A DNA stretch of 44,925 nucleotides. Source: a virus. Location of the stretch: the IMG/VR virus record IMGVR_UViG_3300031643_000637, positions 1-44,925 of that record. One strand, 5' to 3'. The notes beneath the pieces were generated by a model, which saw only the letters and a list, made by a program, of their open reading frames with translations, was not told where the DNA came from and made no database searches. A program made the translations under genes and the position numbers. This document shows, piece after piece, positions 29,195 through 44,925 of this stretch (positions are counted from its first letter, which is position 1; the number at the start of each line of letters is the position of its first letter).

Positions 29195-29196
29195 TA

Positions 29197-30003: not shown

Positions 30004-30260
30004 TTTTTAGTTTTCCCTATCACACGAGAGAGTAATTCAAAAAAGGCAGGATTTCGTTCAAGCTCTTTGGGAATATCTTTAAGTTCAATAGCAGTAGGGT
30101 AAGGTGCCTTAAATTTTAAGCTCACCAGCGTTGGCTTGGACCGCTTTTTAGGCTTAGCCTCCTCGTACTCCTTGAAGCGCTCGGCGGCTTCCTTCATCGC
30201 CTCTCTGGAGACCGGCTTCTTTAGCGCCTCTTTTAATCTCTCAAACTCTTCTTTGGGCAT
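30000..30260 (-). CDS. Small basic hypothetical protein
   Basis: 86 residues behind AGGAGATACG. Helical, highly charged N-terminal half (FERLKEALKKPVSREAMKE) and a KPKKRSKP patch. ATGA overlap with the homing endonuclease. Function unknown. Confidence 0.5.
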   Translation of the reverse strand: MPKEEFERLKEALKKPVSREAMKEAAERFKEYEEAKPKKRSKPTLVSLKFKAPYPTAIELKDIPKELERNPAFFELLSRVIGKTKK

Positions 30261-30268
30261 CGTATCTC

Positions 30269-32839
30269 CTAAAGTGGTCCATAGACCATACCCGAGGCAA
30301 TATCGTATTGATACTCTTCACCATCCACGGCACCAAAGGGATTACTCCATTTCTGCTCTCCCCATTCACCGGTTATTGAGCTACAGCAGAAGCAGGAAAG
30401 TATGCCACCACTAGCGGCGGTAACGCGTATTTTGTCGGCAGGCGGGTGCATAATACCATCTTGCCAGTCCATGTTGCCGTGCGTATCGTAGTGGTAAAGC
30501 AATATATAGCTAGTAGCAAACGGTTCACCTATGGTATCAACAAGGAAGGTAACAATCGTGTCTGGCCCAGGCATCTTTGACTTGAAGTGGGCAGTAACGT
30601 CTTTATTGCTATTCATATAGACGCCTGTTTGCGCGGTGATGCCACTGGCGTCGCCACTCCAATGGTCAAAGTCAAAGTCGCCGGCGGGTGTAGCAACTAA
30701 GGTGACATATTCGCCATCAGGATATTTGCCGCTGCTCGGAGTAACTGTTCCCCCATTGTATGGCTCCACGTGAGTGGTCAGGGTATAGGTTGTAATCTCC
30801 CTGAAGTGACACTTGACTGCTTTATGAGAGTCCATCACCCCCGAGACATAAGCAGTCTCATAGTAACCCCCGCCCTCTATTTCATCAGACCAGTGGTCAA
30901 AGACATAGTTTGGATTGGCATGGGCGGTTACCTGGACTCTTTCGCCATACTTAAATTTCCCGGTTGAGCCGTTATACCACTTCTCTGGTCCCACTTCAGG
31001 TGGAGGGTTGGTGGTTACATAGCCGCCCTCGGCGGGTGTAATGTCCACCTCCAGGGTCTGCAGCTCTTGTTCAATCTCCCTGAAGTGACACTTGACTGCC
31101 TTGTGCTCAGTCATCGCTCCGGAGACATACTCGGGGTTGCTGTAACTCGTCCCGCCCTCTATCTCGTCAGACCAGTGGTCAAACCGGTAGCCTGGGTTCG
31201 GGTGAGCTTCTACTCTGACCTTTGTGCCATAGATGAACTTGCCGGTTGAGCCGTCGTACCACTTTGACGGGCCAACTTCGGGCGGAGGGTCGGTGGTTAC
31301 ATAGCCACCGCCTGATGGGGTAATATCAATCTCCAGAGTCTGTAGCGCCTCCTCAATCTCTCTGAAGTGGCACTTGACCGCTCTGTGTTCATCCATCACT
31401 CCAGCAACATTCTCAGGGTTGTTGTAACTCACGCCACCTTCTATCTCGTCAGACCAGTGGTCAAACTCATAGCCTGGATTTGGGTGAGCTTCTACTCTGA
31501 CCTTTGTGCCATAGGTGAACTTGCCGGTATCATCGTTGTACCACATCTCTTCAGGGTGGCCTTCTGTTGCCTGGGGTTCAGTGGTTACATACCCTCCTTC
31601 AGAGGGTGTAATATCCACCTGCAGGGTTTGTGGCGCTGCCTCTTTAGTGCTGTAGACATTCCAGATGCGGCTGATGTAGTCGTCAAAACCATCTATCTTC
31701 AACACTACCTCTACCGCGCCGTCGGTTAGCCCGCCGCAGGCAACCAGCGGAACTATTATTGGCTCATCAAGGGTTTGCTCGGTGAACTTTTCCAGCGATT
31801 CAGGCAGCCTAAAAGAGTGTGTGTAAGCTCCCGACTTTGGGGTAAAGGCACCTGCCCAGTCCCTATAGCCGGCCTTTATGCTTATGGTGGCTGCCTTTTC
31901 CATGCCTCTCCACTCATGTGTCGGCTTTATTGCGAGAGAGTCGGCAGTAGTCTTTTTAAGTAACAACCCGGCGTCGGCATCCTTGTTGGTTAATTCTATT
32001 CCGTGGCCGTCAATGGTTATCACGGTGAATCTGAAGGCAGGCTTTAGCGCAGGCGTTGTCCGGTAGACATTCCAGATATGGGAGATGTAGTCAGGCATAT
32101 CCGGGAGCTTGGCCACAATCTCCACTGCACCATCGCTAATATCGCCGCAAGCAGTAAGCGGGACCTTTATCGCCTCCGCCAGTTCACCACTGTAGGGGAC
32201 TGTCGGTGATTCAGGCAAGGTGAAGGTGCGAGTGTAGGCGCTAGTCTTGGGGGTAAAGCCGCCCTTCCAGTCTCTAAAGCCAACCTTTATGCTTATGGTG
32301 GCACTCTTGCTGGGGCCCGTCCACTCAAAGGCGGGGACTATGTCTAAAGAGTCGGTGGTTTTCTTATCCAGAAGCAAGCCTGAGTCAACATCATGGTCGC
32401 CCAGTGATATGTCGTTCCCATCAATCCTTATACCCGCGAACCTGAATACTGCCGGTGGCTTGCTACCGACGTCAATCTTCATCACGTCGCTTTCACCCAC
32501 TTCCGGGGACACCCCAATGACAGGTAGAGGTAGTAGTGCTGGCGTAGCTACTATAGTAACCTCGTAGTCGCCCTCCTTCTCCGGTTTGAAGTCAATGGAG
32601 AAGTCGCCAGTTACCGGCTTGGGGATAGCACGCTCATACTTTACCTCTTCGGCAAATTCAGGCTTGTACCATTCCTTAAATCTTATCCTGGCATAGACGA
32701 AGGGCGGAGCACCTATGCCAAGGACCTTGACTGAGCCTTCAATCTTGTAGGTGCTGTCAGCAACACCGGTGCTGGGGAGAGGCTCGGTTAGCTCAATGGC
32801 AACCATGTCGCCAAATTCTCCTAGTTTAGCTTGCGCCAT
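30269..32839 (-). CDS. Large modular surface protein with InlB/Flg_new-like repeats
   Basis: 856 residues behind AGGAGGTCTGAA. N-terminal beta-sandwich (about 1-125). Two copies of a 140-residue domain follow (about 130-270 and 275-410; each has 'DxGLLLxKKTxDSL', 'AAtISIKxGxRDW' and 'xFTPKxxAYTxxF'). Then come four repeats of about 85 residues with 'NPxYxFDHWSDEIEGG ... AVKCHFREI', the divergent InlB B-repeat pattern. The C-terminal domain has a CFCCSS cluster. Such proteins are extracellular adhesins. No signal peptide is seen, consistent with a virion protein. Confidence 0.75.
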   Translation of the reverse strand: MAQAKLGEFGDMVAIELTEPLPSTGVADSTYKIEGSVKVLGIGAPPFVYARIRFKEWYKPEFAEEVKYERAIPKPVTGDFSIDFKPEKEGDYEVTIVATPALLPLPVIGVSPEVGESDVMKIDVGSKPPAVFRFAGIRIDGNDISLGDHDVDSGLLLDKKTTDSLDIVPAFEWTGPSKSATISIKVGFRDWKGGFTPKTSAYTRTFTLPESPTVPYSGELAEAIKVPLTACGDISDGAVEIVAKLPDMPDYISHIWNVYRTTPALKPAFRFTVITIDGHGIELTNKDADAGLLLKKTTADSLAIKPTHEWRGMEKAATISIKAGYRDWAGAFTPKSGAYTHSFRLPESLEKFTEQTLDEPIIVPLVACGGLTDGAVEVVLKIDGFDDYISRIWNVYSTKEAAPQTLQVDITPSEGGYVTTEPQATEGHPEEMWYNDDTGKFTYGTKVRVEAHPNPGYEFDHWSDEIEGGVSYNNPENVAGVMDEHRAVKCHFREIEEALQTLEIDITPSGGGYVTTDPPPEVGPSKWYDGSTGKFIYGTKVRVEAHPNPGYRFDHWSDEIEGGTSYSNPEYVSGAMTEHKAVKCHFREIEQELQTLEVDITPAEGGYVTTNPPPEVGPEKWYNGSTGKFKYGERVQVTAHANPNYVFDHWSDEIEGGGYYETAYVSGVMDSHKAVKCHFREITTYTLTTHVEPYNGGTVTPSSGKYPDGEYVTLVATPAGDFDFDHWSGDASGITAQTGVYMNSNKDVTAHFKSKMPGPDTIVTFLVDTIGEPFATSYILLYHYDTHGNMDWQDGIMHPPADKIRVTAASGGILSCFCCSSITGEWGEQKWSNPFGAVDGEEYQYDIASGMVYGPL

Positions 32840-32840
32840 T

Positions 32841-33170
32841 TCAGACCTCCTTAAAACATAATGTCCTAGCCAGCGCTAGGGCGGAAGGCAGACTCTTGTT
32901 ATAATTAGCGAATTTCCGGTATTCCTCAGCGGTGAGGATGTTCTTTATCTCGACATGGTGCATGTCCTGGAGAGCGTCCTCCACAATCTCGCCCACCCAG
33001 GGGATTAAACCAATAATAGCCGCCGCATCCTCACCAACGCCATGCCCAATAGCCTTCCTGCCGCGCTCGTCGGGCACTGCGGGTAGCTTGAGCGGGGGAG
33101 TTTCCAGGTCAGGTAACTTTATGCTACCTCCAAAAGGCGTGGGTACTGTAGGGCCAGTAAATATCCTCAA
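32841..33170 (-). CDS. Hypothetical protein with amphipathic helix
   Basis: 109 residues from TTG 33170 overlapping the upstream stop. Pro-rich start (GPTVPTPFGG, LETPPLKLPAVP), then a hydrophobic stretch AAIIGLIPWVGEIVEDAL that could insert in a membrane, then a helical end with EEYRKFANYNKSLPSALAL. Family unknown. Confidence 0.5.
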   Translation of the reverse strand: MRIFTGPTVPTPFGGSIKLPDLETPPLKLPAVPDERGRKAIGHGVGEDAAAIIGLIPWVGEIVEDALQDMHHVEIKNILTAEEYRKFANYNKSLPSALALARTLCFKEV

Positions 33171-33532
33171 ACTACTACCTTCGCTTCGTCTAACAGTATT
33201 TCTAGGGGGATAAGCCCTACTCGCAATTCTATTTGTGCTGGGCTGGTAGTGTCAAGCGTGAGCCTCCAGTTGTCAACAGAGAACGGGCCGATGTGGTCAG
33301 TTTTCTCAATGTAATCAACGAATGAGTCATAGGTAGCCTTGGCATAAATACCATACAGGAGTGGTAGAGGCACTCCGTTTCTAACCGCAAAGAGCAGATG
33401 CCTTTTGCCGTCGGCTGTCTCAGTGGCAAAGTCGCTGTAGAAGCGCAGGATAGGCTGAGGAGGCTTGGCCAGATACTCAGCTAGTTTCTTCCCAAGGGAT
33501 TTTGGTCTATCAACCTCTCTTAGTAATATCAT
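33167..33532 (-). CDS. Hypothetical protein
   Basis: 121 residues; weak ribosome site (GGGGAATT). Alpha/beta pattern (KRHLLFAVRNGVPLPLLYG), ending VVV. Overlaps the next gene. No family recognised. Confidence 0.5.
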   Translation of the reverse strand: MILLREVDRPKSLGKKLAEYLAKPPQPILRFYSDFATETADGKRHLLFAVRNGVPLPLLYGIYAKATYDSFVDYIEKTDHIGPFSVDNWRLTLDTTSPAQIELRVGLIPLEILLDEAKVVV

Positions 33533-33547
33533 TTGAGGAATTCCCCG

Positions 33548-33748
33548 TTAATATGCCAGTGGATATGGTCTTTTACCTTCCTTTGTTCCTTCCTGATTTC
33601 CGGGTTCAGGAGGTCCGTGATGATTAAGTACTATCATCGGGTGGTCTTTACCGCAGGTTAGGCAGTCAACTATGGTAACCCTGTTATCGGAGTAGTACTC
33701 TCTGGTTACCACTTTACCTCTGACCAGCTCGCACAGTTCACAGGTCAT
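33548..33748 (-). CDS. Small Cys/His protein (HIT-like end)
   Basis: 66 residues from ATG 33748 behind GGCAGGAGGCT, overlapping the upstream stop by ATGA. CELC pair, then VTIVDCLTCGKDHPMIVLNHHG, which recalls the zinc-bearing HIT-like 'H-PMIV---HH' ending. Too short for a full HIT domain, so possibly a structural remnant. Low certainty on function. Confidence 0.5.
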   Translation of the reverse strand: MTCELCELVRGKVVTREYYSDNRVTIVDCLTCGKDHPMIVLNHHGPPEPGNQEGTKEGKRPYPLAY

Positions 33749-33981
33749 AGCCTCCTGCCGGCACCTCTCATCTTCACGATGAGCCAACGTGGTAGCGGTG
33801 GCTGGAGCTTACCGTCAGGTCCGGTTGGTGATGCCGGAAGCCATGACCAGAGCACCTCAGCTGGGGTGCTCATGCTGGGTCCGAGTCTCTGTCTTATTTC
33901 GGGTGGCAAGGTATCAGCCCCAAATATTGATTGGTGCCTGGCTAATCTCTCGCTTTCCGACCTCGGAACTCCAAAGGGCAT
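33745..33981 (-). CDS. PPLPR-module small protein
   Basis: 78 residues behind AGGGGAGGTGTAGAT. PRSESERLARHQSIFG at the N-terminus and PPLPRWLIVK at the C-terminus align with the last 59 residues of the 34248-36212 protein. It thus appears to be a free-standing copy of that terminal module. Function unknown. Confidence 0.55.
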   Translation of the reverse strand: MPFGVPRSESERLARHQSIFGADTLPPEIRQRLGPSMSTPAEVLWSWLPASPTGPDGKLQPPLPRWLIVKMRGAGRRL

Positions 33982-33983
33982 AT

Positions 33984-34241
33984 CTACACCTCCCCTCTTT
34001 TCTTTAGACCTTTAGTAATCCTTTTAGCTAGTTTCTCTGCTACATCTTCCCCCCATGGCCACTTGATACCCCATCCCCGGGGCAAGGGTGGTCCTTCTTG
34101 TGGTGCGGCAGGACGCACCTGGCTCAGGTGTTTGGTGACGATATGAGCCAGCAACATATCAGTTCTACTAACCCTATCGTACTCTGTGACCTCTAGCACC
34201 TCGCCGCATAGGGGGCATTCAACAGTGACCTTAGTAGCCAT
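33984..34241 (-). CDS. Zinc-finger protein with PPLPR module
   Basis: 85 residues. N-terminal C2H2-like finger: CPLCGEVLEV ... LLAHIVTKH. Then GPPLPRGWGIKWPWGEDV and a basic helical tail (KLAKRITKGLKKRG). The second half repeats the motif of neighbouring proteins. Possibly a linker between nucleic acid and the particle; inference. Confidence 0.55.
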   Translation of the reverse strand: MATKVTVECPLCGEVLEVTEYDRVSRTDMLLAHIVTKHLSQVRPAAPQEGPPLPRGWGIKWPWGEDVAEKLAKRITKGLKKRGEV

Positions 34242-34247
34242 AGTTAC

Positions 34248-34427
34248 CTACTTCTTCCATGGCCAGCGGAGTCCCAGTGCGCGGGGTAGCGGGGGACCAC
34301 TTTCTGGAGGCATAGGCAAAAGGTCATTGACTGTCTGCCCTCTCCCCAGTCTCTCCAGCGGGGGTGTTGAGCCCTTGCCGAATATCCGCTCGTGAAATGA
34401 TAGACGTTCAGATTCTGTTCTAGGCAT
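34248..34427 (-). CDS. Possible internally initiated 59-residue C-terminal module
   Basis: Inside the preceding gene, in frame, ATG 34427 lies behind a near-ideal AAAGGAGGTAATCC. It would yield MPRTESERLSFHERIFG... ending GPPLPRALGLRWPWKK. This matches the layout of the separate 33745-33981 protein. The ribosome site may be a relic of a gene fusion or may give two products. Confidence 0.35.
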   Translation of the reverse strand: MPRTESERLSFHERIFGKGSTPPLERLGRGQTVNDLLPMPPESGPPLPRALGLRWPWKK

Positions 34428-36212
34428 TGGATTACCTCCTTTTAGAATACGCAGCCTTTCCTCTTCGGTCCACGGACCATGCTTGCCGACTCTTGCGAGC
34501 ATAATGGCTGCCTCTTCCACAGTGTATCTGTGCTCTTCTATAGGAGAAGCCGCGATGTTAAAAGCCTCGCGAGTAAAATACTTTCCGGTCTCGGGCTCCC
34601 AGATAAACCCAGTTGGTAACTCAACCCAGGCATGTCCTATTCTTTTACCTTTGCTTTCAACTATCCCGTGAATTAGGTCTCCTTCTTCCTCTTTGATAAC
34701 GAATCTCCAAGCATCCTCGTAGCAGGTGCCGACTTCTGGGTGGGGATCCCCCCCTATTTGTCTCTTTAGGAAAGTTGCTACTTCACCTTCGCTACGAGCC
34801 ATTACAATTTGGGGGTAGGGTTGAGTGGGGTCTGCTTTTGATAAGCGATAACGGTAGCCTCTCGCATAGTCTTCCTTGTCTACAACATCCTTGGGAGACA
34901 ATCGGTGAACCTCATACCCCCATTGCTTAGCTACCCTAAGTGGCTCAAGTTCAATTGCTACCTTGAATAACCTCTCATCTCCCGGATTACTCTTGGCTAA
35001 ATCAGGATAGTCCTTCAATACCTCTGGCGGTACCGGCTTGCCTTCAGAGAGGGCCAATCTTACCTTTGCCTTATGCCCCCAGCCAGCCATGTCAGTGAAG
35101 GTTAGTTGCGTCAGCCCTGTTTCTTTCTTTAGTTGACTAAATGCCCTTTGTTCTGCTTCTCTACCAACAGGTGATTGTGGGTCAACAGGTCCTCCCAATA
35201 TCTCATTATATCGCTTCTCCAACGAGCTAGCCCACTGGCTATATTCAGCTTGCGTCATTTGCCAGGGCTCTTTAACCTCGTGAGTAACAGCCTCGGCTTT
35301 GTGGATTGCCTCAGATTGGGCATCTTCTAACTTAGCCAACTGCAACTCTAGCGCATCCCTCCGTGTTTCCAATGCAGCGGTATCCCTTCCAGCACTCTCC
35401 GCTTCATCTATGGATGTTAGCAAATCAGCTAATTTGTCTTCTAATTTATCAATCTTCTTTTGAAGGACAACTTCAGGACTAATCTTACGACCAGGCATCT
35501 TTTCAAGCGTTGGTTGCCAGCCTGTTGGGAGAAATGGCCATTCAAAACCTTCCCTAGCCATTGCTTCTCTCAAGGTCTCTCCTTCTTTGAAGTTATGACC
35601 TGGGAATTTGGAGTTCATATAAGCAGCTTCTTCTACTAATAACCTCTCATCTCCCGGGTTACTCTTGGCTAAATCAGGATAGTCCTTCAATACCTCAGGC
35701 GGGACTGGCTTGCCTTCGGAGAGGGCTTTTTGGACTCCGTACTTGTGCATAGCAGGAGAACGAACGTGCCCATCAACATACTCCGCTTTCGTCATCTGCC
35801 AGGGCTCTTTCCCCGGGTTACTCTCCGCTGGGGGTTCACGGAATACTGGGGGAGCTGCTGGAGCAACAGGTGATTTTACCGGAGGAACGCCAGCCTTAGC
35901 CACTGGTCTCCTAGTTGCAAGCCCCATGGACTGCTCATGTAATTCACCAGGCATACGAATCAGGAGGTTATTCTTTGCCTCTCTATCTGGAGCGAATATA
36001 AACGGACTCTTCCCTCCCATTTCAATTAGTCCTTCTACCCTGTTCTTGAACGCTGGGCTGTTAAAATCCATACCAAGTTCTTTAGCAATTCCACGGAGAC
36101 CTATAGCATGGTCAGGAGGAGCTTTAGGAAACCCAGCAAATGCTTTGGTATAGCTTCTATCAAAGGCAGCAATAAATTCTGCCTGGGGATTTGGGGGTTC
36201 ACGGAAATTCAT
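34248..36212 (-). CDS. Large polyvalent-type protein with papain-like and PPLPR modules
   Basis: 654 residues. N-terminal region with AFDRSYTKAFAGFP; two EPWQMT(K/Q)AEY boxes and two ALSEGKPVPPEVLKDYPDL boxes, the hallmark of large polyvalent phage proteins. A coiled coil at about 240-310. A possible papain/NlpC-like domain at about 490-560 (GTCYEDAWRFV with Cys, and GHAWVEL with His). The last 59 residues form a module also encoded separately nearby. Polyvalent proteins may be ejected into the host with the genome. Whether it is cleaved is unknown. Confidence 0.6.
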   Translation of the reverse strand: MNFREPPNPQAEFIAAFDRSYTKAFAGFPKAPPDHAIGLRGIAKELGMDFNSPAFKNRVEGLIEMGGKSPFIFAPDREAKNNLLIRMPGELHEQSMGLATRRPVAKAGVPPVKSPVAPAAPPVFREPPAESNPGKEPWQMTKAEYVDGHVRSPAMHKYGVQKALSEGKPVPPEVLKDYPDLAKSNPGDERLLVEEAAYMNSKFPGHNFKEGETLREAMAREGFEWPFLPTGWQPTLEKMPGRKISPEVVLQKKIDKLEDKLADLLTSIDEAESAGRDTAALETRRDALELQLAKLEDAQSEAIHKAEAVTHEVKEPWQMTQAEYSQWASSLEKRYNEILGGPVDPQSPVGREAEQRAFSQLKKETGLTQLTFTDMAGWGHKAKVRLALSEGKPVPPEVLKDYPDLAKSNPGDERLFKVAIELEPLRVAKQWGYEVHRLSPKDVVDKEDYARGYRYRLSKADPTQPYPQIVMARSEGEVATFLKRQIGGDPHPEVGTCYEDAWRFVIKEEEGDLIHGIVESKGKRIGHAWVELPTGFIWEPETGKYFTREAFNIAASPIEEHRYTVEEAAIMLARVGKHGPWTEEERLRILKGGNPMPRTESERLSFHERIFGKGSTPPLERLGRGQTVNDLLPMPPESGPPLPRALGLRWPWKK

Positions 36213-36242
36213 TTTCTACCTAAAATTTCTGGTTCTGCCATA

Positions 36243-36584
36243 TCACCAATCCCCTCTGCTTAGTTCTCTCACCCAGGAGAAGGCTGGCTTGTCTTCAGGT
36301 GGAAGCCAGATGGCGCACCAAGCTCCCGGCGATATTTTGCCATCTACTACCGTGCAGGAGTCTGGCGATTGCCAGAAACGGCACTTCCGGCACTTATAAT
36401 CCCAGAACACCGGAGGCGGTGAAAACGGCAGGTAGGCAACCTGAGACTTGGTAAATTTTCCTTTTTCAGCTACATGGGCGTTTATCTCAGCAACCCATGG
36501 CTGTAAGACTCCTGGGGACACAGTAGCATTGGCCGCGGCTTTGCTGATGGAATTGATAAGCAGGCTGGGGATAGATGCGTTCAT
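36243..36584 (-). CDS. Small protein with four-cysteine cluster
   Basis: 113 residues behind AGGAGATAAATT. Helical start, then FWDYKCRKCRFWQSPDSC and GAWCAIWLPP. The four cysteines (C-x2-C-x8-C-x14-C by eye) resemble HiPIP-like or zinc sites. Ends WVRELSRGDW. Could hold a metal or Fe-S centre; unproven. Confidence 0.55.
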   Translation of the reverse strand: MNASIPSLLINSISKAAANATVSPGVLQPWVAEINAHVAEKGKFTKSQVAYLPFSPPPVFWDYKCRKCRFWQSPDSCTVVDGKISPGAWCAIWLPPEDKPAFSWVRELSRGDW

Positions 36585-36587
36585 AAT

Positions 36588-36794
36588 TTATCTCCTTCTC
36601 ACCTCAGATAGAAGTTCTGGCTTGGTATAAACAAAACGGGGCAATGGCAAACCTTCCCATGGCAAGCAAGGTCTCAAATCGGCAAAGGTGAGTTTTGGCC
36701 CTGCTTTCTCGGCATAGATGAAAGCTGAGTAGGTTATTAGACCACCTATTCCTGATATTAGAAAGATGGCTAATCCTGTTTCGGGGTCAAGCAT
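36588..36794 (-). CDS. Single-pass membrane protein with PLPR motif
   Basis: 68 residues from ATG 36794, sharing bases with the upstream stop. A hydrophobic segment (ETGLAIFLISGIGGLITYSAF, about 4-24; first part shown) is followed by a basic tail with WEGLPLPRFVYTK, a variant of the PPLPR module. Probable membrane anchor. Confidence 0.5.
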   Translation of the reverse strand: MLDPETGLAIFLISGIGGLITYSAFIYAEKAGPKLTFADLRPCLPWEGLPLPRFVYTKPELLSEVRRR

Positions 36795-37096
36795 CACTCC
36801 TCCTTCAGACTCGTTACGAACTGCAGTAAGTCCTGGGGAGCATTTTTGAGCATCTTGTCAATTCGCTTGAGGAGTTTCTCCAGCTTCTCCAGCTTCTCAA
36901 CAGGCATTGAGTTGATTTCCCTGATAAGGCTGATAACCTGGTCAAGTTCAGGCGCGGATTGGGATACCCGTTCGGCTACTGTCAACACGTCCTTGATAAG
37001 CTTGAGCTGTCTGGAGTCGGGAAATTTCTCCATTGACTCGGCAATCTGGGAAAGCCGGGGGAGGCCGAGGGCCTTTTCTACTCTTTCCACTACCAT
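36794..37096 (-). CDS. Helical protein, first gene after promoter and hairpin leader C
   Basis: 100 residues from ATG 37096 (GGAGGTAAGAC). Nearly all helical with a coiled coil (VEKLEKLEKLLKRIDKML). Like the 28264 gene it stands first behind a consensus promoter and hairpin leader. Function unknown. Confidence 0.55.
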   Translation of the reverse strand: MVVERVEKALGLPRLSQIAESMEKFPDSRQLKLIKDVLTVAERVSQSAPELDQVISLIREINSMPVEKLEKLEKLLKRIDKMLKNAPQDLLQFVTSLKEE

Positions 37097-37107
37097 GTCT
37101 TACCTCC

Positions 37108-37151
37108 AAAAAGTAACGAGCCAAGTTACCAAGAAGGTCGCTTGCCCCGTT
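37108..37151 (-). promoter_or_regulatory. Leader hairpin element, copy C
   Basis: Arms AACGGGGCAAG (37151-37141) and CTTGGCTCGTT (37125-37115), with one mismatch and one G-U, enclose a degenerate inner stem (GACCTTC/TTGGTAAC region). U5 follows at 37112-37108. Transcription from the promoter at 37158 would start almost at the first arm. The start codon is 12 bases after the U-run, so no room remains for another promoter. Confidence 0.7.
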
Positions 37152-37157: not shown

Positions 37158-37186
37158 ATTGTAAGCTCTAGTTTACGCTATGTCAA
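37158..37186 (-). promoter_or_regulatory. Consensus promoter (TTGACA-17-TACAAT)
   Basis: -35 TTGACA at 37186-37181 and -10 TACAAT at 37163-37158. The -35 forms the last two codons of the upstream SDR gene. It drives the operon starting at 37096 through leader copy C. Confidence 0.8.
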
Positions 37187-38104
37187 GGCTTGATGAAAGG
37201 CTTCTCTTATAGTGTCGTGGATGAATTCTTTACTGATGGGCAGGCAACGCTTCAAGTCGCTGGGGAACTCATCTCCCCACATATATGGAGTGAAAGCACT
37301 TGTCATCTTCTGAAAACCGGCTTCAATTGGTGTCGGGTGGAAGTCATCCTTAATTACCATCCTGACCATAATGAACTCACCGACCCACTCTATCAGTTGT
37401 GCTAAAGTAGGTGGATTGGGGTGAGTAAGCCAGTAAGTGCCCGGTTTATCAATCCTGGCCATGGCATCGGCGACATCATCTATTGAGATGAGGTTCAATT
37501 TACCGCCAGGGTTAGCCCTGATTTGGAACACTGGCTCAATTATCGGCAGCCGCAGCGACCCCTCAATCCTGCGCCTTACGACCTCCGCTCTCTGATGTAC
37601 TTTGACTACCAGGGTGATAAACTGGGAAAAGTGGCCGGGGTAGAAGTGCTGGGGGGTGCCCATGATTATTGAGGGCTTGAAGATAGTAACCCTGGGAATC
37701 CTGGACTCACCTACCATTGACTCACAGAAAGCCTTGGACTGTTCGTAGGTGTTTCTCCCCTGGGTGTAGGCGGTCGAGGTAAAGTAGAGGCAGGGTATCT
37801 CATACCTTTCGCAGAAGTCAATGACATTCCTGGTACCCTCAACATTCGTTTGCCATATTGACCCGTCCCTATCCTCCCCCAGGCGGTGGATGCCAGCCAG
37901 GTGGTGGACGCAGTGGATATCCCCGGGCACATCCCCCAGTCCCAGGTTAGGTTCAGTGATGTCCCCAACCAGGGGGATGAGGTTTTCTCTAGCCTCTGGC
38001 GGGTGCCGTGAGAGACCGTAAACCTTATGTCCTTTTGCCAGCAATTTGGGAATAAGAGCTTGCCCCACGAATCCGCTTGCACCGGTGAGTAATACCGCGT
38101 TCAT
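37178..38104 (-). CDS. Extended SDR (NAD-dependent epimerase/dehydratase family)
   Basis: 308 residues from ATG 38104 (GGAGGTAGCA); the frame is open a little further upstream. Rossmann motif TGASGFVG (7-14), DIT and HLAG (69-72), and the catalytic YxxxK (Y120, K124 in TYEQSK). Complete length for the family. Substrate unknown; relatives act on nucleotide sugars, sterols or quinone-related compounds. Last gene of the cassette that includes UbiA and a CTP-dependent kinase-like enzyme. Its 3' end carries the -35 of the next promoter. Confidence 0.85.
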   Translation of the reverse strand: MNAVLLTGASGFVGQALIPKLLAKGHKVYGLSRHPPEARENLIPLVGDITEPNLGLGDVPGDIHCVHHLAGIHRLGEDRDGSIWQTNVEGTRNVIDFCERYEIPCLYFTSTAYTQGRNTYEQSKAFCESMVGESRIPRVTIFKPSIIMGTPQHFYPGHFSQFITLVVKVHQRAEVVRRRIEGSLRLPIIEPVFQIRANPGGKLNLISIDDVADAMARIDKPGTYWLTHPNPPTLAQLIEWVGEFIMVRMVIKDDFHPTPIEAGFQKMTSAFTPYMWGDEFPSDLKRCLPISKEFIHDTIREAFHQALT

Positions 38105-38178
38105 TGCTACCTCCTTATGAATACCAGCCAGACCATACATCAAACAGCCCCCAAATGAAGTAGTAAATATCAGCCAGT

Positions 38179-38694
38179 TTATCTACCATAGGTGCCCTCC
38201 CAAACAGGGTGTAGTTCTGGAACCGTAAGGAAGTCCTGTGGGAGCGGAGGCTTCGGGATTATGAAATCGTACGCCTCATCTACCAGCTCGGAGCAGATAA
38301 AGTGGGAGTTATGAAGGTAGCCGAAGCCAAACCTTCGCCTGGTCAGCTTGTACCAGATAAGCCTGAGAAGGATGTAGCGAGGGATAGCCCAATAGTCGTA
38401 CCACGAACTGGGGTTATCTGCTATTATTTCTGCTCGTTTTGCAGCCTTCATGGCTTTTCCTTCGTCCTCGTGCCTCAGAACCAGCATATACCTCCCTGCT
38501 GATGCAGTAAGCGCCCGGATTAGGACTCCACGACCGATGCTTTCAATTACCAGCGGTAGCCCGCGCTTTGTGGTAGCGAAGTAGATTGCTACGTGGCCCC
38601 ACTTGCTACCTAGCAGCCAGTCTTTGAGTTTCCGATAGATACCGGTCTCCTCGCTTCTCATTAAGATAACATCGCCCGGTTCTGGTTTATACAT
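38179..38694 (-). CDS. YiiX-like permuted papain-fold hydrolase
   Basis: 171 residues. Circularly permuted NlpC/P60 order: GDVILMR, then GHVAIYF (H34), IESIGRGV (E51) and HFICSELVDEAY (C134). This matches YiiX/DUF830 (amidase/thioesterase) proteins. No clear signal peptide. Could cleave lipid-linked or peptidoglycan-derived amides; close to UbiA and SDR genes. Confidence 0.8.
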   Translation of the reverse strand: MYKPEPGDVILMRSEETGIYRKLKDWLLGSKWGHVAIYFATTKRGLPLVIESIGRGVLIRALTASAGRYMLVLRHEDEGKAMKAAKRAEIIADNPSSWYDYWAIPRYILLRLIWYKLTRRRFGFGYLHNSHFICSELVDEAYDFIIPKPPLPQDFLTVPELHPVWEGTYGR

Positions 38695-38704
38695 TAGTGC
38701 ACAT

Positions 38705-39640
38705 CTAGTCCCCTACGATTTGGCCTACCAGAAGCAATATTGGGTAGCAGGCTGCCACCAGCACCACGAACCCCCCAACCTTCCTGAAGTTACCTCTTAG
38801 TAAAACAAGGGTGGCCATCAGTCCGGGGAAGGTAAAGAAAGTTATCGCTGTCATCGGGGCAAGGATGCCTAAATAGATGAGGAAGACTTGGTAAAGTAAC
38901 ACGAACAGGAACCACGACATTACATACCACTCCAGAGCAATACCATACTCCCAGACCTTGTAGGCCAGGCTCTTAACCCCCTTCTTGAGGTTTTGCTCAG
39001 CGTCGGGCCACTCATCAAAAGCCAGCCCGAGGTAGCAGAGCACTATAGCAGTAGGAACGCTTACTATTAACCCAACCAGCCAGGGCGGGTCCGGGTTTAC
39101 CGAGAACATGCCAATCAGAACAGCTATAGGCCCAACTCCAGCGGCAAGAGCTGTTTCATGAGTCCAGTTGAACTTTCCCCAGGAGTACCAGAAGGTAATC
39201 AGCATCCCGGCGATGGCCAGCGACAGCAGTACCCAGCTCACATTTATTGCCAGATAGATTATTGGCACCAGAGCCAGGACATACCAGCTGATAGCATTAA
39301 AGGCTACCTCTTTCACGCTGACTATGCCGTTTTCAATAAGATTCTGCCCTCCAGTGTAGTCCTTCTCAGCGCTGCGGTCCTCAACCTCTCCCTTGTCCAG
39401 ACCAGTCCAGGCATAATCAAGAAAGCTGTTGAAGGCATGTCCACCAGCCATAATTAATAGCCCAGCTACTAGAGCTATCCAGGCATGGGGACACAAGCCC
39501 CCGGCTAGCACCGCTCCTATCAAAAGTGAGCATCCAAAAAAGGGTGCTGCGAACCACCGGGGCAAGGTCCACAGGTGTGCTTTAACTTTGTCTTTCAAGA
39601 TTTCCCCTCCTCTTTCAATTCGTTCCTCAGTTGGCAGCAT
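38705..39640 (-). CDS. UbiA-family prenyltransferase
   Basis: 311 residues from ATG 39640 (AAAGGAGGG upstream). Nine or so membrane segments. First Asp-rich motif NSFLDYAWTGLDKG (N71, D75, D82), then YTGGQNLIENGIVS as in MenA-like members. The second Asp motif region reads YLGLAFDEWPDAEQNLKKG. UbiA enzymes join isoprenyl chains to aromatic or glycerol-type acceptors. The acceptor is unknown. Between a TnpB insertion and YiiX. Confidence 0.85.
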   Translation of the reverse strand: MLPTEERIERGGEILKDKVKAHLWTLPRWFAAPFFGCSLLIGAVLAGGLCPHAWIALVAGLLIMAGGHAFNSFLDYAWTGLDKGEVEDRSAEKDYTGGQNLIENGIVSVKEVAFNAISWYVLALVPIIYLAINVSWVLLSLAIAGMLITFWYSWGKFNWTHETALAAGVGPIAVLIGMFSVNPDPPWLVGLIVSVPTAIVLCYLGLAFDEWPDAEQNLKKGVKSLAYKVWEYGIALEWYVMSWFLFVLLYQVFLIYLGILAPMTAITFFTFPGLMATLVLLRGNFRKVGGFVVLVAACYPILLLVGQIVGD

Positions 39641-39747
39641 TTTTCTTAAAACCCTCCTTTAATTAGTGGTGCAAATACAAAATAGCCCAGTAGAAACGCC
39701 ATAATAAATTAGGGCAAGGGGACTGCCTGCTTTAGCTGGCAGAGGAA

Positions 39748-39776
39748 TTGCCCTACCTCCTTTCCTGTGGTATAAT
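39748..39776 (+). promoter_or_regulatory. Probable tnpB promoter (TTGCCC-17-TATAAT)
   Basis: -35-like TTGCCC at 39748-39753, spacer 17, -10 TATAAT at 39771-39776. The -35 lies within the left-end stem, 74 bp before the tnpB start. Confidence 0.6.
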
Positions 39777-39849
39777 AAGAATGTAGCCGTCCGATACCGG
39801 CTTTGTCATTGTATCGGGTGGCGAAGTCGGTAAAAGGATGGCTTAACTT

Positions 39850-41004
39850 TTGCGTAGGACTTTTAAGTATCGCCTTTACCCAAACAGAGAGCAGGCAAAA
39901 GCTCTTGAGCATCAGCTTAATGAGGCTCGCTCTCTGTATAATGCCGCTCTCCAGGAACGCCGCGAGGCGTGGCGAATGCAGAAACTGAGCCTTAACTACT
40001 ACGACCAATCTAACCAGCTCAAGGAGATACGAGACGCGGGTAACCTTGAACTGGCCAACTACTCCGCCTGCCAGGATATGCTCCGGCGGGTTGACAAGAC
40101 CTTCAGGGCTTTCTTCCGCAGGGTGAAGGCAGGGAAGAAAGCGGGATATCCTCGTTTCAAGTCCAGGGATAGATTTGACAGCTATGCTTTTCCCGCCTGG
40201 GGAGACGGCTGCCACCTGACGGACGCTGGCAGGCTTAAAGCCCAGGGAGTCGGCATCATCAGACTGAAGATGCACCGCCCTATTACCGGTGAGATTAAGA
40301 CCCTTACCTTGAAGCATGAAGCCGGGAAGTGGTACGCCTGCTTCAGTGTAGTTATCGATGTTGGTTCCCCCCTGCCGTCGCCGGAGGCTATAGGTATCGA
40401 TGTGGGGCTTTGTTCCTTCGCCGCCCTCTCCAATGGAGAGCTGGTGGCTAATCCCCGTAACCTCAAAGCGGGACTGGGGAAGCTGCGCCGGTGTCAGCGG
40501 AAGGTCGCCAAGCGTAAGAAAGGCAGCACCGGCCGGCGAAAGGCCGTCCGGTTGCTCCAGAAGGCCCACGCCCGCATCCGTAACCAGCGTTCGGATTTCC
40601 AGCATAAACTTAGCCGGCAGATTGCCGATAACTACGGCCTTGTCGCCGTCGAGGATTTGAATATCAAAGCGCTGGCCAGAAGTATGCTGGCTCAATCGGT
40701 CAGTGATGCAGGCTGGGGTTCTTTCCTTGCCAAGCTCGCCTACAAAGTGGAGGAAACTGGTGGGCAGCTGGTTAAGGTTAACCCCAACGGGACTTCGCAG
40801 GTATGCTCCCGCTGCGGGTGTCTGCCTAATGTTCCTAAATCTCTTGCTGACCGTATTCACTCCTGCCCTTCCTGCGGGCTGGTCATTGACCGTGATGTCA
40901 ACGCCGCCCGTAATATCCTTACTCGTGCGCTTGGACTGAGCGTTTGGGACGAAACGTGGCACAATGGTGCGAGCGTGTCCCAAGAAGCCGTCTGCTTTAG
41001 CTGA
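39850..41004 (+). CDS. tnpB: TnpB RNA-guided nuclease (RuvC type)
   Basis: 384 residues from TTG 39850. Opening RTFKYRLYPNREQ is typical. Intact RuvC triad: D184 (GIDVGL), E268 (VEDLNI), D349 (DRDVNAARNI). Zinc finger CSRCG (319-323) and CPSCG (339-343). Nothing is broken, so it may still cut DNA with a guide RNA made from the 3' end of the element. Opposite orientation to all neighbours; inserted within the cassette. Start codon and weak ribosome site suggest low expression. Confidence 0.95.
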   Translation: MRRTFKYRLYPNREQAKALEHQLNEARSLYNAALQERREAWRMQKLSLNYYDQSNQLKEIRDAGNLELANYSACQDMLRRVDKTFRAFFRRVKAGKKAGYPRFKSRDRFDSYAFPAWGDGCHLTDAGRLKAQGVGIIRLKMHRPITGEIKTLTLKHEAGKWYACFSVVIDVGSPLPSPEAIGIDVGLCSFAALSNGELVANPRNLKAGLGKLRRCQRKVAKRKKGSTGRRKAVRLLQKAHARIRNQRSDFQHKLSRQIADNYGLVAVEDLNIKALARSMLAQSVSDAGWGSFLAKLAYKVEETGGQLVKVNPNGTSQVCSRCGCLPNVPKSLADRIHSCPSCGLVIDRDVNAARNILTRALGLSVWDETWHNGASVSQEAVCFS

Positions 41005-41044
41005 CGGAGTAGTCACTATCGGCATCCACACAAACCAGTATTCA

Positions 41045-41701
41045 TCAAGCCAACGCATGTAGAACCCCCATTACCAGTGCACTCACTAGAGGAATGGTTA
41101 GGTTGTCATCCACGAACCTCGTTGTTTTGGTGTATTTCTCGGCAAGGGTAGCGGCTCCAGCACCTGCAGCTCCAATCCAATAAGGGTGAATGAAGTAGGC
41201 AAGAATTAAGCAGGCAGCCAGCATACCGGTGCTCCCCCAGGCACCTTTAACCTCTTTGCCATAGACAGCACTTCGGATGAGCCCGGTTATCGCGTCGCCA
41301 GCGCCCATAAAGCAGAGGGGAACGATAGCCAGCCAGGGTTGCCCCATTATTCCCCATAGGACGCCAATGAGGACAATACCCGTTGCCGGGAAGTGTATCT
41401 CAGCCAGCGCTTCAGGTCTTCCCAAGCCGCCGACTCCACGGAAGGTCTTTGGTCTCAGAAGCCTGGCGTAGAGGAGTAACAGAGTAAACCCGCTGGTTAG
41501 GATTAGTGGCCACCAGAAGCTCGAAAACAGTAGCGGGCAAAGCAGAAAGCCGATACAGCCACCCAGATGCCCCAGCTTCCTGCTTATATACTGGGGGATG
41601 CCGTAATCGTAAAACAGGTTTGCTAAGTACAGACCCACCAGTGCTGCCCCAGCGATAAGGATTACGTAGGGTATCTCAGCTACCAAGATATTTCGCTCCA
41701 A
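41045..41701 (-). CDS. Dolichol/phytol-kinase-like CTP-dependent membrane enzyme
   Basis: 218 residues, starting probably at TTG 41701. Six to seven membrane segments. Family motifs: ISRKLGHLGG (R41, K42, H45), GAGDAITGLIRSAVYG (D136), KGAWGSTGM and a DDNLTIPL end. These fit the SEC59/VTE5/CDP-archaeol-synthase-like superfamily, which transfers from CTP onto isoprenoid alcohols or phosphatidates. With UbiA next door, an isoprenoid or ether-lipid modification is likely. Exact substrate unknown. Confidence 0.8.
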   Translation of the reverse strand: MERNILVAEIPYVILIAGAALVGLYLANLFYDYGIPQYISRKLGHLGGCIGFLLCPLLFSSFWWPLILTSGFTLLLLYARLLRPKTFRGVGGLGRPEALAEIHFPATGIVLIGVLWGIMGQPWLAIVPLCFMGAGDAITGLIRSAVYGKEVKGAWGSTGMLAACLILAYFIHPYWIGAAGAGAATLAEKYTKTTRFVDDNLTIPLVSALVMGVLHALA

Positions 41702-41723
41702 TATAATGAGTATGGTCTCGCCA

Positions 41724-42161
41724 TTACCCTCCCCTCGCCATAGCGCTCAGCATCTTCTGGGCGACCGGCCTTAACTTGTTGCTCATCCACCTCTCAAAAA
41801 CGTCTATAATCTCAGCCGCGTCGTAAAGGCTCCTGTTGCCACTGAAAAGAACCTGGCCTCTAGCCCTTGCTGTCCTTGGGTCAAGCTCCCCTATCACTAT
41901 GTCGATAAAGGTGCTGTCGGTCATCCACACCTCGTTCCTGATGTCGCTGTCGGAGTCATCCCTGAAAACGCCGTGGGGGGTGAGTTTGATGGTGAAAACC
42001 CCCCCCTCGTCACCCTCAACAATCAGTTTTCCCTTTCTGCCGACGGCAGCCGCTAGTTTTTCGGTGGGAATCCTTGACATGACCGCCTGATGCTCCATCT
42101 TATCCTCGAGGGCGAAGTCAATCAGGGTTTCGGTAACTGTCTTTTGCTTTTCGTCAGGCAT
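41724..42161 (-). CDS. SCP2-like sterol/lipid-carrier domain protein
   Basis: 145 residues behind AAGGAGACTTTAGTT. Pattern: GKLIVEGDEGGVFTIKLTP, then EVWMTDSTFIDIVIGELDPRTARARGQVLFSGNRS and a helical end (FERWMSNKL). The 'dp..A..rGqv.fsGn' box and length fit SCP-2-type lipid carriers. Consistent with the lipid-enzyme neighbours. Moderately sure. Confidence 0.5.
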   Translation of the reverse strand: MPDEKQKTVTETLIDFALEDKMEHQAVMSRIPTEKLAAAVGRKGKLIVEGDEGGVFTIKLTPHGVFRDDSDSDIRNEVWMTDSTFIDIVIGELDPRTARARGQVLFSGNRSLYDAAEIIDVFERWMSNKLRPVAQKMLSAMARGG

Positions 42162-42163
42162 AA

Positions 42164-42970
42164 CTAAAGTCTCCTTACGGCTGCTTTTAATAACTTCCTT
42201 TTCCCTTCTCTCAATAGCCTCCTGGCTATGTCCTCCTTCAGGATGATGGGCTTTGCTCCATCCAGCCTTGAGGCAATCTGGTCAAAGGCTTGCTCAACCA
42301 CCTTCCTGTCCGGAGTCAGCGGTATCTCGCCAAGCAGGGTTATGCCAAACGCCGTGCAAATTCTAGCTAAATCAATCTCTGGCGATAGGAACGGCCAAAA
42401 CCTTTCACCGAGTGGGGAGAGGGCATAGGTCATATTGGCAATCAATCCCAGTATCGGCACCTTCTTGACCTTGAGAAAGTCAAGTGTCCTCAGCAAATCG
42501 GCGGCGGCCATATCGGTGGGTTGAAAGACGAGGATCACGCCGTGGAGGTCGGTGATGTACTCATAAAGGGCCTGCATTTCGCCAGACGAACTGGGAGGGG
42601 TATCCAGGATGAGCCAGTCGAGGTTAGCCCAGGCCACCACCCCCTGAAGCAACTGCCTGGCGGCGTCTATCTTCTCCTCTTCATTCCACAGCACTGCTGG
42701 GGCTTGCCCGAAGTGGCTGGCGAGGGTGATAAACTGGATGCCCCCGGCATCATAGGGGACAATCGCCCCCTTGCCGCCATCCGCAGTAGCATCCAGTCCC
42801 CAGTCGGGCGGCTTCTCCAGCCCAAACGCCTCGCTACCGGTTGGCGCGGTGATATCCGCATCCAGATAGCCAACAGTGAAGCCGATCCTTTTCAGGCTGC
42901 GAGCCAGGCTGGAGGATACCATTGTCTTTCCAACTCCACCCTTAATCGACGCTACTACTATCTTTCGCAT
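42164..42970 (-). CDS. Mrp/MinD-like P-loop ATPase
   Basis: 268 residues from ATG 42970 (GGGGAGAG). Deviant Walker A KGGVGKT (10-16), YLDADITAP, LDTPPSSSGE (switch II) and VFQPTDMAAADL. The Mrp/NBP35 CxxC is missing; only CTAFG near the C-terminal third. Either a MinD-like membrane partitioner or a metal-cluster carrier relative. It is the first gene of the cassette, behind leader copy D and a consensus promoter; possibly acts in phage partition. Confidence 0.8.
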   Translation of the reverse strand: MRKIVVASIKGGVGKTMVSSSLARSLKRIGFTVGYLDADITAPTGSEAFGLEKPPDWGLDATADGGKGAIVPYDAGGIQFITLASHFGQAPAVLWNEEEKIDAARQLLQGVVAWANLDWLILDTPPSSSGEMQALYEYITDLHGVILVFQPTDMAAADLLRTLDFLKVKKVPILGLIANMTYALSPLGERFWPFLSPEIDLARICTAFGITLLGEIPLTPDRKVVEQAFDQIASRLDGAKPIILKEDIARRLLREGKRKLLKAAVRRL

Positions 42971-42992
42971 CTCTCCCCACTTTTGCCTTTCC

Positions 42993-43064
42993 AAAAAAGA
43001 AAGGGCAAGCAAATATTGCTTGCCCCGTTTTTCCTGGGTGCCGAAACGAGAGTTTCAGCTACCC
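42993..43064 (-). promoter_or_regulatory. Leader hairpin element, copy D, with extra 5' hairpin
   Basis: First hairpin GGGTAGCTGAAAC/GTTTCGGCACCC (43064-43052 with 43047-43036). Second: ten-base perfect arms GGGCAAGCAA/TTGCTTGCCC (43025-43016 with 43012-43003) closed by a three-base loop, followed by U6 (42998-42993). The long inner loop of copies A, B and E is missing. Start codon ATG 42970 lies 22 bases beyond the U-run. Confidence 0.75.
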
Positions 43065-43154: not shown

Positions 43155-43183
43155 TTGACAGGCATTGTCCTATATGATAGATT
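43155..43183 (+). promoter_or_regulatory. Rightward promoter (TTGACA-17-TAGATT)
   Basis: -35 TTGACA at 43155-43160, spacer 17, -10 TAGATT at 43178-43183. It drives the + strand operon via leader copy E. Its -10 overlaps that of the opposing leftward promoter. Confidence 0.65.
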
Positions 43184-43209
43184 GTAAATGATACCGACCA
43201 CATTGTCAA
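43181..43209 (-). promoter_or_regulatory. Leftward consensus promoter (TTGACA-17-TACAAT)
   Basis: -35 TTGACA at 43209-43204 and -10 TACAAT at 43186-43181, spacer 17; near identical to the promoters at 28438 and 37158. Drives the 42970 cassette. Stronger consensus than the opposing rightward promoter. Confidence 0.8.
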
Positions 43210-43223: not shown

Positions 43224-43295
43224 AACGGGGCAAGCAACCTTCGCTGAGAAGGTCCGAACGGCTTGCCCCGTTCCTTTTTAGCAGGGTTGCGTCCC
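43224..43295 (+). promoter_or_regulatory. Leader hairpin element, copy E
   Basis: Arms AACGGGGCAAGC (43224-43235) and GCTTGCCCCGTT (43261-43272) around the inner ACCTTCGCTGAGAAGGT stem. U5 at 43275-43279. Tail GGGTTGCGTCCC (43284-43295) can only partly pair with the first arm. ATG 43309 follows GGGGAGGAG. Near identical to copies A and B but on the opposite strand of the window. Confidence 0.8.
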
Positions 43296-43601: not shown

Positions 43602-43832
43602 ATGCAGACAAAGGTTATAAAAGCGAATAAGCTCCAGGTTCTGGAATTTATAAAGGAGAGACAGCTCATCTGGGTGTATGAGCTAGTTCAAGAGTTTGGT
43701 TACACTGACCGCAGTGCTAGGGATAGACTTTACCGCTTAAAAAAGGCAGGGCTAGTGATAAACATGACAAGAGGTTGCTGGGAGCTAACTGAGGAAGGCT
43801 ACAGAAAATTAAGATACTACGGTAAAAGGTAG
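43602..43832 (+). CDS. Winged-helix DNA-binding protein
   Basis: 76 residues. Helix-turn-helix VLEFIKERQLIWVYELVQEF then YTDRSARDRLYRLKKAGLV, and the wing INMTRGCWELTEEGYRKL (parts shown). A one-domain wHTH regulator, likely controlling the switch region or late genes. Confidence 0.7.
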   Translation: MQTKVIKANKLQVLEFIKERQLIWVYELVQEFGYTDRSARDRLYRLKKAGLVINMTRGCWELTEEGYRKLRYYGKR

Positions 43833-43842
43833 GAGGTGTGTT

Positions 43843-44925
43843 ATGACAGGGGATAAGGTTGACGAATTAAAGATAGAAGGAAAAGGAGATTCCAAAGAAG
43901 CAGGGGAAGCTTCCGAAGCAGAAAGGGTAACTCCAGATGTAGAAGCAGATTTCCTGGGACTACTCAAGGACTATGGGGTTGCTGAGAAAGCAGCTAAAAT
44001 CATTACCAAACACATTGCTGACACTGGATCCCCTGACATCTTTGATGACCCAAGAGAATTGCTTGGGAAGATGGCTAAATTCCCTCGCCATGTCCCCCCA
44101 GTTACCAGGAAAAATATCTTGGACCACTGGGTATCTACCAGGAATATACCCATACCGGAAGGATTTGAGGAGGAAGCTGATCTGTCTGCTGAAGAACTGA
44201 AGACACGGAAAGGAAAGGGGACTGCACCGGAAAAATACTCAATTGACACCGATACCGGCGCTATCAAGGTAGCATCAACAACTGATAAAACGGCACTGAC
44301 CTGGGACGAGGCAGAGAAATTGTCAAGGGAAATCAAGAAGGATATTGAGGCAAGGGAAAAGAGGGAGGATGTCGGAAAGGAGCCGGCTTTCGTTGTGGGT
44401 GAGCATGGCGCATGGACATTAAACCCCAAGGCACCAATAGGCTTCGGAGAGTTTGCCGTCTTTCAGATGTACCAGGACTCCTTGAAGAGGGGTGAGCCGA
44501 TTGACCCGGTGGAGGAGCTGACCAAGAGGGAAGAGCAATCAGCTCGTTTGAAGGAGGCAATGGGTGTTAAGACAGGAGGAGAGGACACGGAAATGACCAT
44601 GCTGGATAAACTGGACAAGCTCGGGATGCTCAAAAAGGGCGAGGGGGAGGGAGGATTGCTAGCCCAGCTGGATTCACTGGGGCTACTACGGAAGTCAGGG
44701 GAGGAAGGGAGAGATACGCAGATAGATATGTTGTCTCAGCTGGACCAACTGGGGCTATTGCGAAAGACCGGAGAGGAAGGAGGATCCTCGCAGATAGCTA
44801 TGTTGTCTCAGCTGGACCAACTGGGGCTTCTGAAAAAACCGGGTGAAGGAGAGGGTTCCCAAACAATCTTGGCACTGCAGACGGAGGTCAAGGAGCTCAG
44901 GGAATCGCTGCAAAAGCAAGAGATG
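43843..44925 (+). CDS. Large acidic protein with C-terminal tandem repeats (cut by window edge)
   Basis: Open from ATG 43843 (GTAGGAGGTGTGTT) to the last base with no stop: at least 361 residues. Acidic N-terminus; helical domain around residues 40-100 (FLGLLKDYGVAEKAAKIIT, ILDHWVSTRNIPIPEGF). From about residue 255 come three imperfect 27-residue repeats: 'SQI(D/A)MLSQLDQLGLL(R/K)K(T/P)GEE(G)'. The last visible part is a coiled coil (LQTEVKELRESLQKQE). Possibly a scaffold or assembly protein; no family identified. Confidence 0.65.
   Translation, partial: MTGDKVDELKIEGKGDSKEAGEASEAERVTPDVEADFLGLLKDYGVAEKAAKIITKHIADTGSPDIFDDPRELLGKMAKFPRHVPPVTRKNILDHWVSTRNIPIPEGFEEEADLSAEELKTRKGKGTAPEKYSIDTDTGAIKVASTTDKTALTWDEAEKLSREIKKDIEAREKREDVGKEPAFVVGEHGAWTLNPKAPIGFGEFAVFQMYQDSLKRGEPIDPVEELTKREEQSARLKEAMGVKTGGEDTEMTMLDKLDKLGMLKKGEGEGGLLAQLDSLGLLRKSGEEGRDTQIDMLSQLDQLGLLRKTGEEGGSSQIAMLSQLDQLGLLKKPGEGEGSQTILALQTEVKELRESLQKQEM

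Follow-up and report, generated by a model that had tools for sequence, protein, structure and literature searches.

A conserved virus-linked cassette with prenol kinase-like, UbiA prenyltransferase and lipid carrier-like genes in probable viruses of Dehalococcoidia

Virus-encoded lipid synthesis is known as a kind from a giant algal virus: the sphingolipid enzymes of coccolithovirus (EhV) give rise to virus-specific membrane lipids that are needed for assembly and egress (PMC9561107). The locus described here is a gene cassette in the IMG/VR virus record IMGVR_UViG_3300031643_000637 (44,925 bases, classed linear). This whole stretch is called the window below and is labelled G000. The cassette resembles EhV in that lipid enzymes are encoded by a virus, but EhV is a eukaryotic giant virus with sphingolipid enzymes, whereas the window belongs to a prokaryotic virus and the enzymes are of isoprenoid/polyketide type. 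Cannabinoid synthesis relies on a type III polyketide synthase (PKS) for the phenolic head and on a UbiA enzyme for its prenylation (PMC11380790). Most relatives of the window likewise combine a type III PKS with a UbiA enzyme, with intact motifs; in contrast, the plant pathway has no kinase, SCP2 or Mrp partners, and there is no type III PKS gene in the window. A CTP-dependent prenol kinase of the PfPolK type has been tested, and has an RKxxH clamp and a model with eight helices (PMC10849223). Like the prenol kinases (phytol kinase VTE5, farnesol kinase, PfPolK), the kinase-like enzyme of the cassette has eight predicted helices, and the residues of its Arg-Lys-x-x-His clamp are spaced as in those enzymes (PMC10849223). 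Unlike them it has no Pfam match, and its putative function is read from its sequence and a model. Bacterial alkylresorcinol/alkylpyrone type III PKS clusters (e.g. L058) contain a related PKS (~30% identical), but its neighbour is a geranylgeranyl-reductase-like flavoprotein and not a kinase, UbiA, SCP2 or Mrp. No relevant publication was found in literature searches on UbiA in phages, type III PKS in viruses, viruses of Dehalococcoidia or such a cassette. No description came to light of a virus of prokaryotes in which a prenol kinase, a UbiA enzyme and a lipid carrier (plus a type III PKS in relatives) form a conserved unit; the chemistry appears to be new, and so does its occurrence in a prokaryotic virus.

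A preliminary description of this DNA had proposed that six genes on one strand make up a route to a prenylated lipid or quinone. Our results support such a route in part: the genes form a virus-linked unit, the assignments of the prenol kinase and of a MenA-like UbiA have become firmer, and a PKS is added from the relatives. We favour, with modest confidence, the view that the virus carries a pathway to a prenylated membrane lipid of quinone-like type. The list of open reading frames (ORFs) and a Pfam profile search place the six genes where they had been described, all on the minus strand between 37178 and 43012 (Table 1), and their enzyme classes are well supported. Mrp and SCP2 are spaced by 2 bases and SCP2 and the kinase gene by 22 bases. 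The likely ATG of the Mrp ORF is at 42970, the start given earlier, and that of the extended short-chain dehydrogenase/reductase (SDR) is at 38104.

Four further IMG/VR records, G001 to G004 (IMGVR 3300032170_000078, 3300038427_000339, 3300020171_000005 and 3300038417_000475, respectively), were found when 2.9 million viral contigs were scanned with patterns for UbiA, kinase and PKS. A scan with the SDR pattern re-found G001-G003, and the SDR of G004 was obtained by direct search. The UbiA scan of 84,980 genomes gave four matches, all in metagenome-assembled genomes (MAGs) of Dehalococcoidia. Two of these, L017 and L018, are viral fragments; the other two, L019 and L020, are Dehalococcoidia contigs with a kinase-UbiA pair in a chromosomal setting. 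Further viral fragments were found in MAGs of this class (L031 and L032, which lie with L018 in G006, and L054 and L055 in G259). All or part of the cassette is therefore carried by five IMG/VR contigs (the window and G001-G004) and by six contigs of three Dehalococcoidia MAGs (L017; L018, L031 and L032; L054 and L055), and its presence in other viruses, for which a search had been proposed, is borne out. The gene order Mrp-SCP2-kinase-UbiA-(PKS)-SDR is kept where the sequence suffices, with insertions and the relative order of PKS and UbiA as the exceptions.

On the Mrp side, several contigs carry homologues of 43602-43832 and/or 43843-44925, which adjoin Mrp in L005, L018, L021 and L054. On the SDR side, homologues of window genes between 28.5 and 37 kb are present in several contigs (G001-G003, L017). 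Because viral homologues stand on both sides of the cassette in several contigs, the cassette is viral and not flanking host DNA. That the genes are host DNA caught at a prophage edge, a concern raised with the preliminary description, is extremely improbable: L019 and L020 do bear the kinase-UbiA pair in a chromosomal setting, but the same viral neighbours recur in other contigs, and the chromosomal pairs have no Mrp, SCP2, PKS or SDR beside them. The members of these pairs are adjacent homologues of the window genes (UbiA about 61-64% and kinase 42-46% identical) and they are rare. Class-wide, UbiA was found in 3/294 and the kinase in 2/294 Dehalococcoidia genomes, and some of these occurrences are viral contigs. 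Trees of UbiA and of the kinase, which had been suggested as a guide to a host origin, were built, and are compatible with descent of the viral pair from the chromosomal one as well as with the reverse.

The window virus probably infects Dehalococcoidia bacteria. We make this assignment because of the MAG binning and a tRNA match, with no isolate behind it. The window tRNA-Gln (435-508) shows a 96% match to one Dehalococcoidia genome, which fits such a host, although sequences as conserved as tRNAs cannot prove it. An integrase gene (649-1545) adjoins this tRNA on its 5' side, an unusual position compared with an attachment site at the tRNA 3' end. G001 encodes an XPF-like nuclease and helicases that had suggested an archaeal host; this idea was dropped, all four UbiA genome matches being Dehalococcoidia MAGs.

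In every pairing of the window, G001, G002 and G003, the identity of UbiA, kinase and SDR lies between 48 and 77%, and over the related genomes as a whole it is mostly 50-80%. Together with a protein encoded at 28526-29194, found in three of these records at 50-67% identity, they are the window genes best conserved in G001-G003; the replication genes differ, and no homologue was found in these three records for most other window genes. G001 and G003 have replication genes in common. Ratios of non-synonymous to synonymous substitution (dN/dS) ranged from 0.055 to 0.19 in 13 of 15 pair comparisons, the other two being saturated, which indicates that the cassette is under purifying selection. Catalytic signatures are intact in every copy tested (11 for UbiA, 7 for PKS, 8 for SDR and 13 for the kinase). 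L032, which lies outside the 11 UbiA copies scored, has a UbiA gene (1276-2163; G006:C59) broken by one in-frame TGA. L021, L031 and L055 carry a distant UbiA type, 25-37% identical to that of the window, at the same place in the cassette, and in the tree the window kinase clusters with those of L021 and L031. Because this distant UbiA occurs in the same cassette, the sequence type appears to have been swapped in these three contigs, yet a UbiA was retained. Among 50,697 GenBank phage genomes, no match was found to UbiA, kinase or SDR (E 1e-20 limit), or to the 28526-29194 protein, a possible protease considered below. Two weak PKS matches there (22% identity, Staphylococcus records) were disregarded.

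The window UbiA protein scored 33.8 bits against PF01040, for a cut-off of 34.2, and its L002 homologue 36.0. The Asp-rich motifs N71-x3-D75, D82 and D209-x3-D213 are invariant in 11/11 copies. As in MenA-type prenyltransferases, both Asp motifs are present, and the best NCBIfam match is 1,4-dihydroxy-2-naphthoate polyprenyltransferase (E 1.5e-13); the score against the MenA equivalog, however, is far below its cut-off (50.6 bits vs 277). The protein is closest to MenA models and is best described as a putative MenA-like UbiA prenyltransferase, whose substrate need not equal that of MenA. The gene after the kinase-UbiA pair of L019 encodes a UbiE/MenG-like methyltransferase, which points to a quinone-like product. 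The resemblance to MenA, this methyltransferase and the absence of an own head-group synthase from the window version would also suit a respiratory aid, with the cassette boosting or modifying a menaquinone-type quinone of the host and thus keeping electron transport running during infection. We consider this rather unlikely: the PKS of most relatives has no part in menaquinone synthesis, the cassette has no further recognisable Men/Mqn gene, and G119, one genome with a chromosomal pair, has three other UbiA genes, by which its own quinone route may already be served.

The kinase-like protein keeps the RKxxH clamp, a GDxxTG (GD-x2-TG) motif and a DDN motif in 13/13 homologues, and the spacing of the clamp is that of R29, K30 and H33 in PfPolK. 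Its AlphaFold2 model has a pLDDT of 89.4 and eight helices. The top PDB look-alike of this model is the CDP-diacylglycerol synthetase 4q2g (Z 7.6), tied with unrelated helical bundles and within the noise of helical proteins; Foldseek gave no significant PDB match. Against viral models a single match was obtained, to a Yasminevirus giant-virus protein without assigned function (TM 0.68, E 0.005). Motifs and model together suggest a putative prenol kinase-like enzyme.

For the SCP2-like protein, the Pfam score of the window copy is 20.8 bits (PF02036, cut-off 21.3), and 3/9 members match the family weakly. A profile of the nine members retrieved exclusively SCP2 structures from the PDB (best E 0.004), so that the putative SCP2 assignment is weak but consistent. 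The Mrp protein, whose PDB relatives are CFD1, ApbC and Mrp, has the deviant Walker A sequence KGGVGKT, and the KGGxGK P-loop is found in 9/9 copies. The C-terminal CxxC, which holds the iron-sulfur (Fe-S) cluster, is missing from the window copy and from 7/9 copies overall. A basic C-terminal tail is present in 9/9, with amphipathic stretches that are borderline compared with shuffled sequences; that the ATPase binds a membrane is a guess.

A type III PKS is located between kinase or UbiA and SDR in G001, G002, G003, G004, L017, L031 and L032. The L002 copy matches the chalcone-synthase domains PF02797 and PF00195, and the Cys-His-Asn triad is present in all seven copies. The best PDB match is Mycobacterium Pks11 (E 5e-33); the NCBIfam DpgA model is also matched, far below its cut-off. 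L018 runs from UbiA to SDR without a PKS between them, and in the window the gene for a C92 hydrolase fills the place where L017 has the PKS. This hydrolase, previously counted as a member of the cassette, has no homologue in the other cassette records and is particular to the window. From these comparisons, the core is Mrp-SCP2-kinase-UbiA-SDR, with the PKS as a frequent addition. A small ferritin-like protein with an ExxH-type motif, seen by eye, is encoded between PKS and UbiA in G001 (L002 9747-10013) and G003 (L006 8959-9258).

The window SDR is 52-63% identical to the SDRs of G001-G003, and the motifs TGxxGxxG (TGxxGFxG) and YxxxK are present in 8/8. Extended SDRs include sugar epimerases, and a PHROG nucleotide-sugar epimerase family was matched (E 4e-21). 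Kinase, UbiA (compare decaprenylphosphoryl-phosphoribose synthase) and an SDR epimerase could on this basis make a prenyl-phosphate sugar carrier, providing a lipid-linked sugar for glycosylation of surface or virion proteins. G001 has a large glycosyltransferase block, and Dehalococcoidia, in which peptidoglycan is reported missing, are thought to have glycoprotein coats (PMC4959651). Such a carrier nevertheless seems improbable, for it leaves the PKS unexplained, UbiA resembles MenA models, and conservation of the cassette does not extend to the glycosyltransferase block. This block (G001 37000-50324, L004 1-13325) consists of about ten glycosyltransferase, sugar-enzyme and methyltransferase genes and is not common to the window.

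In the pathway to a prenylated, quinone-like lipid that we favour, the kinase-like enzyme would phosphorylate a prenol, for example geranylgeraniol or phytol. As the cassette has no recognisable second kinase, the step to the diphosphate would fall to an enzyme of the host. UbiA would then join the prenyl chain to an aromatic head; this aromatic or polyketide head would come from the viral type III PKS in most relatives and from the host in the PKS-less window virus. The SDR may reduce or epimerise an intermediate or the product. The SCP2-like protein would carry the lipid, and the Mrp-like ATPase, with its Fe-S motif mostly lost and its basic tail, may have a part in delivery or positioning at the membrane. 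Most likely, the lipid would alter a membrane, either of the infected Dehalococcoidia cell, which has no wall, or of the particle. A membrane-altering lipid is plausible because a virus of Dehalococcoidia would meet the membrane under the protein coat. Several points weigh against this pathway. A second prenyl-phosphate kinase was not recognised in the cassette, the window and L018 lack a PKS between UbiA and SDR, and the window SCP2 and UbiA scores fall slightly below the Pfam cut-offs. The kinase is without a Pfam match and its structural match is weak, being shared at the same Z with an unrelated helical bundle. The inserted DNA described below may disturb transcription in the window virus.

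Table 1. Coordinates of the cassette and of neighbouring features in the window.
Feature	Position	Strand	Remarks
Mrp/NBP35-family P-loop ATPase	42164-43012	-	PF10609 E 5e-40; first cassette gene
SCP2-like lipid carrier	41724-42161	-	PF02036 E 5e-4
Prenol (phytol/farnesol/dolichol-type) kinase-like membrane enzyme	41045-41701	-	RKxxH clamp, eight predicted helices
Inserted DNA, kinase/UbiA gap	39641-41044	.	carries TnpB 39850-41004 (+)
UbiA-superfamily (MenA-like) prenyltransferase	38705-39640	-	PF01040 E 3e-8
C92 permuted papain-like (YiiX-like) hydrolase	38179-38694	-	PF05708 E 1e-7
Extended SDR, NAD(P)-dependent oxidoreductase/epimerase	37178-38143	-	PF07993 E 9e-22, PF01370 E 7e-16; last cassette gene
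Promoter-like site 5' of cassette	43181-43209	-	consensus match only
Terminator-like hairpin, possible attenuator	43002-43026	-	stem + T run
Divergent viral flank	43602-44925	+	helix-turn-helix protein 43602-43832; 361-aa protein 43843-contig end
Viral genes 3' of cassette	28526-37096	-	several with homologues in G001-G003, L017

A tnpB gene, overlooked previously, lies on the opposite strand in the middle of the cassette (NCBIfam guided_TnpB, E 1e-88). In L017 and L018, both near relatives, about 10 nt separate kinase from UbiA, and the DNA that carries tnpB in the window is for this reason an insertion. It disrupts no cassette gene. TnpB, an RNA-guided nuclease, is encoded antisense to both flanking cassette genes, and no adjoining TnpA was seen. 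A mobile endonuclease-like gene entered the same spot in G004 (L021 10645-11442, in the kinase/UbiA gap); it has a homologue in the virion block of the window (29197-30003).

Transcription from one promoter, as proposed in the preliminary description, is unproven. A sigma-70-like site upstream of the cassette (TTGACA-17-TACAAT, read from 43209 to 43181) agrees with the consensus at 11/12 positions, but chance alone would give about 5.3 promoter-like sites, against the eight found. A hairpin with an 11-pair stem and a T run (z -2.9) is located between this site and the Mrp ATG. A dispersed hairpin repeat, ACGGGGCAAGC ... GCTTGCCCCGTTCCTTTTT, occurs in the window at 23485-23529, 28308-28351 and 43226-43270, with half copies near 37149 and 43027. 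Nine matches were counted against 1.2 expected, and the predicted folds are strong. The repeat lies 5' of the cassette and of gene blocks of virion type, with further copies in L017 and L054; it is possibly a terminator or attenuator common to the viral transcription units.

The product or the membrane proteins of the cassette might alternatively bar competing viruses, by superinfection exclusion or surface alteration. The cassette is membrane-active and lies in a probably temperate virus, given the integrase. However, PADLOC gave no defence match to the cassette enzymes save a weak similarity to the Mrp P-loop, the only other matches being Cas12f-type ones to TnpB, and the cassette is situated inside the viral gene array and not among recognisable accessory genes. 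We regard exclusion as very improbable.

No large terminase, portal or HK97-type capsid was recognised in the window and its relatives, among the best 25 families listed and in records that are fragments. The terminase and portal searches used two PHROG families and are a weak test, as terminases are spread over several PHROG families and the lambda control fell in other families. A capsid candidate at 26767-27531 had no relatives in viral contigs or GenBank phages and was rejected. These missing genes, and the failed model of the capsid candidate (pLDDT 33), would agree with integrative plasmids in which the lipid serves plasmid or host maintenance. We hold plasmids to be decidedly unlikely: all five records are listed as viruses by IMG/VR, tail-spike and tail-fibre-type matches were obtained, and long arrays of short co-oriented structural-type genes are present. 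Possible, if unlikely, is a new, perhaps non-tailed, lineage of Dehalococcoidia viruses that makes a meroterpenoid (prenylated polyketide) lipid of its own and places it in the particle or in an exit membrane of the peptidoglycan-free host.

Two other features are common to these viruses. The 222-aa protein encoded at 28526-29194 is 50-69% identical across related viruses and has conserved GHG and SC motifs, peptidase-like by eye. It gave no PDB, PADLOC or GenBank phage match and is a possible maturation protease. A motif of the type LLPxxPxxGPPLPRxLGIxWPW is found at the start or end of about 11 otherwise different proteins of G000, G001, G003 and G004, encoded in the window at 13670-14233, 33984-34241 and 34248-36212, and could be a sorting or assembly tag.

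The cassette is a compact enzyme set suited to expression in a laboratory host. If the prenylated, quinone-like lipid is indeed made, it would provide a way into the study of Dehalococcoidia viruses, about which little is known, and would mean that a bacterial virus can supply a membrane lipid of its own.

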